DNA of 64,000 nt from Halomonas beimenensis. GTDB taxonomy: Bacteria > Pseudomonadota > Gammaproteobacteria > Pseudomonadales > Halomonadaceae. Below the pieces are notes generated by a model, which ran no database searches, was not told the DNA's origin, and saw nothing but the letters and a program-made list of their open reading frames with translations. Shown here one piece after another: positions 13,738-16,248 of the stretch. Both the position numbers and the translations under genes were made by a program. Location of the stretch: contig NZ_CP021435.1 in NCBI RefSeq assembly GCF_002549795.1, positions 1,798,001 to 1,862,000 of the forward strand. The letters are read 5' to 3'. How positions within the stretch are numbered: the stretch's first letter is position 1; every line of letters starts with the position of its first letter.

Positions 13738-14244
13738 TCAGGCCTCGGCGTCGTCCTGGACGTAGGCGCGCTGGATGATGACGTCCTCGGCGGGCACGTC
13801 GGCGTGCATGCCGCGGCGGGTGGTGGCCACGCCCTTGATGCGTTCCACCACGTCCATGCCCTGGACGACCTCGCCGAACACGCAGTAGCCCCAGCCCTGG
13901 ATGTTCTTGCCGCGATGGTTGAGGAAGTCGTTGTCGGCGACGTTGATGAAGAACTGGGCGGTGGCGGAGTGCGGGTCCTGGGTGCGGGCCATGGCCAGGG
14001 TGCCGCGATCGTTGGTCAGGCCGTTGTCGGCCTCGTTCTCGATGGGATCACGGGTGGGCTTCTGGTTGAAGTCCAGGTCGAAGCCGCCGCCCTGGATCAT
14101 GAAGCCGTCGATGACCCGGTGGAAGAGGGTGTTGTCGTAGAAGCCGTCGCGGACGTACTGCTCGAAGTTGGCCGCGGTCTTGGGGGCCTTGTCGTGGTTC
14201 AGGGCGACATGGATATCGCCGAAATTGGTCTGCAAGATGATCAT
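13738..14244 (-). CDS. ppiB: Peptidyl-prolyl cis-trans isomerase B (cyclophilin)
   Basis: Cytoplasmic cyclophilin; no signal peptide is present. The 168-residue protein has the cyclophilin core [13 protein letters not shown] with the catalytic Arg, [13 protein letters not shown], and the [11 protein letters not shown] strand. A GTG codon one position upstream is possible, but the AGGA ribosome-binding site is spaced better for the ATG at 14244. It is transcribed away from glnS across the structured element at 14291-14406. Confidence 0.95.
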
Positions 14245-14290
14245 CACGGTGTCCTGTCGTTGTTGCTAGGGCTGCCACAATGGGAAGTGT

Positions 14291-14406
14291 CCCGGGGCGC
14301 CGGGGACAGGTCGAAGAGGGGGTCTTTTGCCATGGATGGCAAAAGTAGCGCCCATGGATGGGTTCACAGCGCCCCCTCGGAGACCTGTCGCCGGATCAGT
14401 CCCGGG
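14291..14406 (+). ncRNA. Cloverleaf-like inverted-repeat element with two CsrA/RsmA-type hairpins
   Basis: Nested complementary arms are visible: CCCGGG (14291 and 14401), CCGG (14300 and 14391), GACAGGTC/GACCTGTC (14305 and 14382) and GAGGGGG/CCCCCTC (14316 and 14372). They flank a symmetric GAA/GGA internal loop able to form tandem G.A pairs. Inside are two hairpins, CTTTTGCCAT/ATGGCAAAAG (14324-14345) and CCCAT/ATGGG (14351-14362). Both present CATGGATG, matching the CANGGANG signature bound by CsrA/RsmA when in a hairpin loop. Whether it is transcribed is unknown. It lies upstream of the glnS -10 box, so it could be a separate small RNA or a dispersed repeat. Confidence 0.6.
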
Positions 14407-14448
14407 AAAAAACTCACTACGGCAGCCCCGGCGGTATAGCGGGATGCC

Positions 14449-14479
14449 TTGGCGCCCTATGGGCACGTGGCGCTATAAT
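14449..14479 (+). promoter_or_regulatory. Probable glnS promoter
   Basis: A perfect -10 TATAAT is at 14474-14479, with a candidate -35 TTGGCG at 14449-14454 (19-base spacer, longer than ideal). The start codon follows 89 bases later. Confidence 0.55.
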
Positions 14480-14568: not shown

Positions 14569-16248
14569 ATGACCAGCGAGACCACCAGCGCGCCGAACTT
14601 CATTCGCAACCAGATCCGCGAAGAGGTCGAGGCCGGCCGACAGGGGAAGATCGTCACCCGCTTCCCGCCGGAGCCCAACGGCTTCCTGCACATCGGCCAC
14701 GCCAAGTCGATCTGTCTGAATTTCGGGCTCGCCGAGCAGTTCGGTGGCGACTGTCATCTGCGCTTCGACGACACCAACCCGATCAAGGAAGAGCAGGCGT
14801 ACATCGACGCCATCAAGGAGGACGTCAGCTGGCTGGGCTATGACTGGGCGGGTCAGGTACGCTTCGCCTCCGACTACTTCGACCAGCTCTATGCCTGGGC
14901 GCAGCACCTGGTGCGCGAGGGCAAGGCCTATGTGGACGACCTCTCGCCGGAGGAGATGCGCGAGTACCGCGGCACCCTGACCGAGCCGGGCCGGCCGAGC
15001 CCCTATCGGGAGCGCTCCGTGGAGGAGAACCTGGACCTGCTCGAGCGCATGCGCACCGGCGAGTTCGCCGAGGGCGAGAAGGTGCTGCGCGCCAGGATCG
15101 ACATGGCCGCGCCCAACATCAACCTGCGCGATCCCATCCTCTACCGCATCCGCCACGCCGACCATCACCAGACCGGCGACAAGTGGAAGATCTACCCGTC
15201 CTACGACTTCGCCCACGGCCAGTCGGACGCCATCGAGGGCGTGACCCATTCCCTGTGCACCCTGGAATTCGAGGACCATCGCCCGCTCTACGAGTGGTTC
15301 CTCGACAACCTGCCGGTGCCGTCCAAGCCGCGCCAGATCGAGTTCGCCCGGCTCAACCTCAACTACACCCTGACCTCCAAGCGCAAGCTCAAGCTGCTGG
15401 TGGACGAGGGCATCGTCGACGGCTGGGACGATCCGCGCCTGCCGACCCTTTCCGGCATGCGGCGTCGCGGCTATACCCCGGCCTCGATCCGCAAGTTCTG
15501 CGAGATGATCGGCGTGACCCGCGCCGACGGCGGCCTGGTCGACATCGCCATGCTCTACCACGCCATCCGCAGCGACCTCGAGGACAACGCGCCCCGGGCC
15601 ATGTGCGTGCTCAAGCCGCTCAAGGTGGTGCTGACCAACGTGCCCGAGGACTTCGAGGAGACCTACGAGGTGGCCGGCCACCCGGCCCGGGAGGACATGG
15701 GCGTGCGCCGGATCCCCTTCACCCGGGAGATCGTCATCGACCGGGACGACTTCATGGAGGAGCCGCCGAAGAAGTTCTTCCGCCTGGCGCCGGGCAAGGA
15801 GGTGCGGCTGCGCAACTCCTACGTGATCCGTTGCGACGAGGTGGTGAAGGACGCGACCGGCGAGATCGCCGAGCTGCGCTGCTCGGTGGACTTCGACACC
15901 CTGGGCAAGAACCCGGAGGGCCGCAAGGTCAAGGGCGTGATCCACTGGGTCAGCGCCGCCCACGGGGTCCCCATGGAGGTGCGCCTGTACGACAACCTCT
16001 TCCAGGTCGAGCAGCCGGACAAGGACAAGGACGCCGACTTCCTCGAGCACCTGAACCCCGATTCCCTGGTCACCGTGCAGGCCGTCGGCGAGCCCAGCCT
16101 GGCCCAGGTCGCCCCGGAGAGCCGCTTCCAGTTCGAGCGGGTGGGCTACTTCTGTGCCGACCGTCATGCCTGCCGCGACGGCAAGCTGGTGTTCAACCGC
16201 ACCGTGGGGCTCAAGGACAGCTGGGCGAAGATCAAGAAGAAGGGCTGA
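14569..16248 (+). CDS. glnS: Glutaminyl-tRNA synthetase
   Basis: Class I synthetase that charges tRNA-Gln in the cytoplasm. The 559-residue protein has the HIGH motif at 41-44, a KMSKS-equivalent TSKRKL at about 267-272, the GlnRS-specific [17 protein letters not shown] context and the C-terminal anticodon-binding beta-barrels. The stop is one base before the cysS start, so the two genes form one operon. It is probably driven by the TATAAT promoter at 14474. Confidence 0.98.

Follow-up and report, generated by a model that had tools for sequence, protein, structure and literature searches.

Between ppiB and glnS of Halomonas beimenensis, positions 14291–14406 of the window (the whole 64,000-nt stretch of DNA that was analysed) are occupied by an intergenic element in which nested complementary arms enclose two GGA-loop hairpins. 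What kind of element is this? A sequence-only reading had offered three options: a CsrA-sequestering RNA, a 5' regulatory leader, or a mobile repeat that spreads CsrA sites. We favour, with a probability of roughly 0.6, an old copy of a miniature transposon with a structured, strand-specific RNA core that carries CsrA-type sites.

Structure and position of the window copy

The window copy consists of a long stem with a GAA/GGA internal loop and two hairpins on top (Table 1). The string CATGGATG is found at 14331–14338 and again at 14353–14360. The nested arms, the internal loop and the two hairpins had been described from the letters alone, and both the sequence and the RNA fold place them where that description did. 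The GGA triplets, with first bases at 14334 and 14356, are indeed 22 bases apart, and the motif is confined to the plus strand as claimed, since the minus strand reads ATCCAT in both loops. Folding of 14293–14404 gave −67.7 kcal/mol (z −6.5) for the plus strand and −57.5 kcal/mol (z −5.0) for the minus strand, and 0 of 200 shuffled sequences were as stable, for either strand. As 39 further related loci in the same genome and the covariation among copies support the same structure, it is not a product of chance. The proposed extent of the element captured this structure but not the limits of the repeat unit, which spans 14267–14430 and has its decayed termini outside the arms.

Table 1. Features of the ppiB–glnS region, in window coordinates.
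Feature	Position	Strand	Remarks and basis
ppiB	13738..14247	-	transcribed away from element
Whole mobile repeat (miniature transposon), 164 bp	14267..14430	+	read against ~166-bp units, parallel insertion, empty sites
Left terminal inverted repeat	14267..14282	+	decayed, 10/16 to CAGGGCTATCGCAGTT
Outer helix 1, 5' side	14294..14298	+	partner 14399–14403; covariation
Helix 2, 5' side	14300..14312	+	includes GACAGGTC; partner 14382–14394; covariation
Purine-rich internal loop, GAA side	14313..14315	+	faces GGA 14379–14381; fold
Helix 3, 5' side	14316..14323	+	partner 14371–14378; covariation
Hairpin 1	14324..14345	+	loop AUGGAU 14332–14337 (ANGGAN, CsrA-type); fold, alignment
Hairpin 2	14350..14363	+	loop AUGGAU 14354–14359 (ANGGAN, CsrA-type); fold, alignment
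Helix 3, 3' side	14371..14378	+	covariation
Internal loop, GGA side	14379..14381	+	fold
Helix 2, 3' side	14382..14394	+	includes GACCTGTC; covariation
Outer helix 1, 3' side	14399..14403	+	covariation
Right terminal inverted repeat	14415..14430	+	decayed, 11/16
TATAAT box, likely glnS promoter	14474..14479	+	downstream of element; TATAATA in 24/24 same-genus loci; inferred
glnS	14569..16248	+	

The TATAATA box between the element and glnS is likely the promoter of this gene, judging from its conservation; a scan with a consensus promoter reported no promoter at the box. Because the window copy lies upstream of this likely promoter, a role in the glnS leader is unlikely for it, and we discarded the option of a 5' regulatory leader, as the conserved box separates the element from the gene. 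Among the ppiB–glnS intervals of 24 same-genus loci, including the window's own, 16 had no insertion that BLAST could detect. The window copy has positional parallels in only two of 23 congeners (G016 and G023). The copy at the window's insertion site in G023 (L302) has kept its arms and a recognisable duplication and has lost the two hairpins. Five other species carry insertions that lie downstream of the TATAATA box and nearer to glnS; of these, three have the same orientation and two the opposite one. These leader insertions in both orientations (L301, L303, L307, L308 and L309) may mark a hot spot. The window copy itself, with its decayed ends and its place upstream of the probable glnS promoter, may be silent.

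Spread and mobility of the repeat in Halomonas

BLASTN located the 39 related loci that accompany the window copy in its genome, after 55 matching pieces had been resolved. Counting the window copy, 24 are of a short form, 15 of a long form and one is truncated. At E ≤ 0.1, the covariance model that we built reported 53 places in this genome, of which the lowest-scoring may have matched by chance. The short form has two loops, and in the long form the tip of hairpin 1 is swapped for a longer branch with a further hairpin, whose loop reads ANGGAT in 15/15 copies. At E ≤ 1e-4, BLASTN matches were present in 23 of 24 other same-genus genomes (the exception is G001) and in one of 13 genomes from other families of the order.

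The arms of these copies change in a coordinated manner. In an alignment of 31 ungapped copies, 17 of the 36 pairs were altered on both sides (85 cells), and in a set of 53 distinct copies this was the case for 24 of 36 (171 cells). The smaller alignment was drawn from 39 sequences (38 and the window copy) by omitting L011 and seven sequences with insertions, deletions or shifted ends, all eight of which are in the larger set. None of 500 shuffles reached the observed number of double-change pairs or cells, and shifting the partner by 1–3 columns in the 31-copy alignment reduced the paired cells from 97.5% to 36–49%. Outer helix 1 showed changes on both sides at three of its five pairs in the 31-copy set and at four of five in the 53-copy set, and in L025 the CCC/GGG stem of hairpin 2 has been replaced as a whole by UAC/GUA. 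The loops fit ANGGAN in 50/54 copies (loop 1) and 53/54 copies (loop 2), with a constant A and GGA and variable positions 2 and 6. The check that the sequence-only reading had proposed, a search for homologues by BLASTN and a covariance model, thus found both the arms and the GGA loops conserved.

Two further observations concern individual copies. On the 3' side, beside the internal loop, a sub-variant carries an additional GGTCCGGCGCTCCGG-type hairpin (L019, L021, L023, L026, L027, L028, L030, L039, L040, L042, L045 and L047). In three congeners, copies in differing orientations (L048, L050 and L058) flank a holC-like gene, which in turn lies between genes resembling ilvE and valS; these names were assigned by eye from the translations.

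The sequence CAGGGCTATCGCAGTT marks one end of many copies and its complement the other, at a distance of about 166 bp in short forms. Both ends were recognisable at 10/16 or better in 18 of the 39 copies examined, and nine of these 18 two-ended copies are flanked by direct repeats that agree in at least 8/10 bp (four exactly), against a mean of 0.19 for random pairing. The target duplication of the window copy agrees in merely 6/10 positions and its ends are decayed; some Halomonas copies are entirely without these terminal repeats. A search for perfect terminal repeats in 61 genomes of the genus yielded two pairs 1196 bp apart, both in G007 (L339, G007:C1:717972-719167, and L340, 2219057-2220252). 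These are identical 1196-bp insertion sequences of the ISAs1 family whose 16-bp ends are perfect; they are flanked at both sites by 10-bp target duplications and encode a 363-aa ISAs1-family transposase (NF033564, E 4.9e-118). The sequence CAGGGCTATCGCAGTT is common to both ends of these insertion sequences and to the MITE copy L017. As the twin hairpin is absent from the 120 bases at each end of the two insertion sequences, the core is apparently a passenger inside ISAs1-type ends. Such an insertion sequence was not seen in the window's genome, which was scanned for terminal repeats with at most three mismatches. The one opposite-end pair at insertion-sequence distance there (308043/310493) came from two neighbouring repeat copies, between which an S13 peptidase and a diacylglycerol kinase are encoded and no transposase. 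That the repeat is mobile is supported by its terminal repeats, by the 10-bp duplications and empty sites, and by the ISAs1-family parent that a congener carries. Of the three original options, spreading of CsrA sites by a mobile repeat is therefore the best supported, its mobility standing on these four lines of evidence; the part concerning CsrA is taken up below.

A few records around this mobility deserve mention. One repeat copy (L341, G430:C1:2373357-2374434) is split by an apparently unrelated insertion sequence of about 0.9 kb with two transposase-like reading frames, as judged by eye. In the window's genome, terminal-repeat pairs 56–103 bp long (G000:C1:1430905-1430972, 3860790-3860892 and 4031603-4031658) are apparently deletion derivatives. 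Carriage by phages or plasmids was considered and rejected: at the sensitivities used there was no phage match and one viral contig, and one search returned a single plasmid record (Halomonas sp. PA16-9) and another none. E. coli genomes gave no match to the element.

All 40 classified copies in this genome are intergenic (one further copy lies at an edge). Relative to the GGA strand, their neighbouring genes are co-directional in 16 cases, antisense in 16, divergent in eight and convergent in none. For the named loci, we counted those of at least 3 kb and set aside eight edge copies and two inside predicted genes; genes were called by a simple custom script, which is a non-standard predictor and for the window's genome was seeded with known genes. 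The neighbours were ++ in 44, −− in 27, +− (convergent) in 19 and −+ in 10, or 30, 22, 16 and nine, respectively, without GT-type copies, and 100 of 102 copies in named loci were intergenic. There is no sign that Halomonas copies are positioned for reading on the GGA strand.

The two-hairpin core outside Halomonas

A model search at E ≤ 0.001 found the two-hairpin core in 37 of 369 genomes of the class, including the window's genome and one other of the same family, and 30 of these 37 had two or more matches. In a pattern scan that returned at least 120 stretches, the carriers among the matches listed included Halomonas, Vreelandella, Billgrantia, Marinobacter, Microbulbifer, Sedimenticola, Thiofilum, Catenovulum, Pectobacterium, Saccharospirillum, Rheinheimera, Zobellella and others. 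The 120 titles listed contained one metagenome-assembled genome labelled as outside the class (Nitratireductor) and one labelled Proteobacteria only. Distant copies have the same two hairpins and an AGCG...UUCACAGCG-type junction, and their arms are different and form nearly perfect palindromes.

To compare arms, we kept copies with an alignable arm and a hairpin-2 pattern that contains ANGGAN, which left 167 after identical ones had been removed; because of this pattern, the loop-2 table of the set is conditioned on ANGGAN. Loop 1 held GGA in 151/167 copies, and this is the one loop-1 class that counts, as the script often put the A–U closure into the stem and the finer classes are unusable. 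The arms of the 133 copies that are not of Halomonas type fell into 118 groups without a common 12-mer, and 40 of them were perfect. Where arms were imperfect, the defects on the GGA strand were G–U in 120 cases versus A–C in 35 (p 4e-12), or 58 versus 12 in a per-copy tally, and G–A mismatches outnumbered C–T by 64 to 15. This bias was absent in the 34 copies of the Halomonas/Thiofilum-type set (22 versus 20), and the Halomonas alignment showed a weak preference (G–U 23 versus A–C 13, two constitutive wobbles left out). As equal rates would otherwise be expected, the G–U excess means either selection at the RNA level on the GGA strand or strand-biased mutation. The latter is less likely because gene orientation near the named copies is merely mildly biased. 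Outside Halomonas, RNA-level selection on the GGA-bearing strand is thus well supported.

Orthologous copies in Marinobacter show how the arms change in place. Four copies (L171, L227, L239 and L220) occupy one shared locus with flanks that are 77–94% identical, and their arms have stayed paired through double changes; L171 adjoins an aspartyl-type tRNA synthetase gene. In two further pairs, L161/L176 (flanks 74% identical) and L193/L194 (81–85%), the arms have been mostly rewritten and are nearly palindromic, and the core has been kept. Flanking duplications outside Halomonas occurred at about the random level (four 7-mers versus 4.75 expected, two 8-mers versus 0.6). Given these orthologues and the random level of duplications, the distant copies seem to have been inherited vertically under structural constraint.

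CsrA, related families and competing explanations

The SELEX consensus of CsrA is RUACARGGAUGU (PMC4347634, PMC7652899), and one CsrA dimer bridges sites 10–63 nt apart (PMC7652899), a range that includes the 22-base spacing of the window copy. Distant model hits were counted in 34 of 38 rows (two of L069 and two of L077 were omitted). Two ANGGANG strings were present in 34/34, the exact consensus in 8/34 and UACANGGANGUAU in 14/34. These copies had been found without the consensus as a pattern, by a model derived largely from copies with another hairpin-2 stem: among its 31 sequences, UAC/GUA is present in one, L025. The window's genome (G000) has one csrA gene. Among genomes with the core or TwoAYGGAY (see below), csrA was found in 48/52, or 42/43 at a completeness of at least 90%, and in the whole class sample in 313/369, or 280/314 at the same completeness, so that the contrast is weak. 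The carrier count omits ten weak TwoAYGGAY genomes, nine with csrA and one (G136, 73% complete) without. The gene was not found in the carrier G233 (98% complete), nor in three less complete carriers. The ANGGAN loops, the SELEX match and the strand-specific G–U excess outside Halomonas suggest that CsrA would dock on the loops of the element, and it is on these that the CsrA part of the mobile-repeat option rests. A CsrA-sequestering role for the window copy is possible.

The closest known family is TwoAYGGAY (RF01731), which is listed for 'Human gut, gamma-Proteobacteria, Clostridiales' (Weinberg et al. 2010, PMC2864571) and has been proposed to bind CsrA (PMC4333381). Like our repeat, it is multi-copy and has two GGA-hexaloop hairpins on a common long stem. 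Its loops read AYGGAY; those of the window copy are AUGGAU twice, and other copies of the repeat have AGGGAN and AAGGAN. The tandem GAs reported for its stem (PMC4333381) may correspond to GAA/GGA in the window copy and are not evident in L171 and L113. Unlike TwoAYGGAY, whose consensus lacks the AGCG...UUCACAGCG junction, the Halomonas repeat allows any base at loop position 2, forms a transposon family and inserts a further hairpin in its long form. The TwoAYGGAY model exceeded its cut-off in 15/369 genomes of the class, with multiple copies in some gammaproteobacteria, and the copies inspected had palindromic arms. The window copy scored 31.7 bits, below the gathering cut-off of 43 bits, although L335, with a junction like that of the window family, scored 55 bits. 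On this ground the repeat is a relative of TwoAYGGAY and not a member. We consider it doubtful, yet far from negligible, that the repeat is instead nothing separate but a divergent member of TwoAYGGAY itself. The shared hairpins and long stem, the score of the window copy, that of L335 and the stretch G325:C2:326338-326446, which is matched by both that model and ours, speak for membership. The window copy, however, is the sole place that the TwoAYGGAY model reported in this genome (at E ≤ 10), cmscan of the window did not list the family, and the junction is foreign to its consensus.

Other known systems resemble the repeat in part. CsrB, RsmY and RsmZ are small RNA genes with many sites. As in those RNAs, the GGA hairpin loops of the repeat are expected to bind CsrA dimers, but the Halomonas element is a repeat scattered over the genome, each copy of which carries at least two sites, and the Rfam scan of the window listed no match to Csr/Rsm small RNA families. 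Matches to SRP, Ysr224, miRNA and other Rfam families were all below their cut-offs and were taken as chance. With ISAs1-family MITEs, the repeat shares 16-bp ends, 10-bp duplications and the absence of a transposase inside; it differs by its conserved RNA core, which in other genera is found without these ends. REPs are 20–40 bp palindromes tagged with GTAG or CGTC, the GTAG type being common in Gammaproteobacteria (PMC3733652). They are likewise dispersed, intergenic and palindromic, whereas our element is about 110 nt long with a branched top, and the Halomonas unit is about 164 bp long with terminal repeats and duplications. GTAG or CGTC was present beside the hairpins in some copies and never at the element end, which sets the repeat apart from REPs. 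QMITE1 and QMITE2 of Coxiella burnetii are also MITEs with palindromic structure, some of which are transcribed (PMC5896051); the main text of that paper does not mention CsrA. In the titles and abstract openings of the openly accessible papers listed, neither such repeats in Halomonas or Marinobacter nor transposons with CsrA sites were described. A review of MITEs (PMC10969869) makes no mention of CsrA, Halomonas or Marinobacter, and two CsrA-related small RNAs, without a repeat, are described in Alcanivorax (PMC9788540).

How might the repeat work? The data support a starting point in which a long stem with two ANGGAN hairpins is present in about one tenth of the gammaproteobacterial genomes sampled and usually more than once per genome, and in which some Marinobacter copies have kept their locus while compensatory changes altered their arms. 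The GGA strand would be functional as RNA, which the pairing bias supports outside Halomonas and which we infer for the window copy. A CsrA/RsmA dimer would then dock on both loops, across a spacing of 22 bases that it should be able to bridge. In Halomonas, the evidence supports that the core became enclosed by ISAs1-like terminal repeats and reached about 40 sites in the window's genome. Speculatively, transcribed copies might titrate CsrA or put neighbouring mRNAs under its control. Several findings count against this mechanism: the 16:16:8:0 orientation here and the small bias at named loci, the weak or absent G–U preference in Halomonas, the mere two positional parallels in congeners, the carrier G233 without csrA, and the lack of target duplications at distant copies.

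A purely DNA-level miniature transposon would explain part of this. Its palindromes would serve transposition or be by-products of palindrome repair, and its GGA loops would have no role as RNA. Such a transposon fits the ISAs1-type ends and duplications, the unbiased orientation in this genome, the congeners' glnS-leader insertions in both orientations, the many double changes with few G–U intermediates and the missing G–U bias of Halomonas-type copies. We nevertheless regard it as unlikely, because it does not account for the one-strand G–U excess in other genera, the preservation of ANGGAN with positions 2 and 6 free, the conservation at fixed loci in Marinobacter or the absence of duplications at distant copies. 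It is very unlikely that the conserved loops are read by a GGA-binding factor other than CsrA. This would agree with the 98%-complete carrier that lacks a detectable csrA, and CsrA binding is deduced from sequence, but the match to the SELEX consensus and, as a weak contrast, the frequency of csrA in carriers versus the sample argue for CsrA. Least credit goes to a transcription terminator or RNA-stability hairpin with an incidental loop sequence, despite the very stable stems and the intergenic position of nearly all copies (40/40 here and 100/102 in named loci). TTTT follows within eight bases of the 3' arm in only 3/132 non-Halomonas-type copies, for which reason we rejected an intrinsic terminator, and none of the 40 copies here lies between convergent genes, although 19/100 do in named loci.

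The miniature transposon with a CsrA-type RNA core, which we prefer, could be part of a wider pattern. CsrA activity is set by titration. Gammaproteobacteria may hold dispersed twin-site CsrA-binding RNAs whose locus-unique, rewritten arms arise without target duplication and which jointly set the level of free CsrA; an ISAs1-type transposon would have captured and multiplied this core in Halomonas, changing the site dose of the regulator. We put this forward tentatively, as on balance it is rather unlikely in its full form. Should the copies be transcribed, a genome with about 40 of them would have gained some 80 or more CsrA-type sites, the spread of a transposon would be tied to global post-transcriptional control, and a little-understood Rfam family would be extended to many gammaproteobacteria. 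CLIP peaks would then be predicted on repeats that analyses may drop as multi-mapping.

The nearly perfect, locus-unique arms pose a separate puzzle, namely how such palindromes are formed and kept up. Among the otherwise unrelated 5' arms of non-Halomonas type, a weak preference for G was seen at −17/−18 (about 70%) and −21/−22 (about 56%), counted from the inner end. L191, L149 and L208 are tandem arrays; in a Saccharophagus metagenome-assembled genome, for example, three copies follow one another at intervals of about 153 bp.
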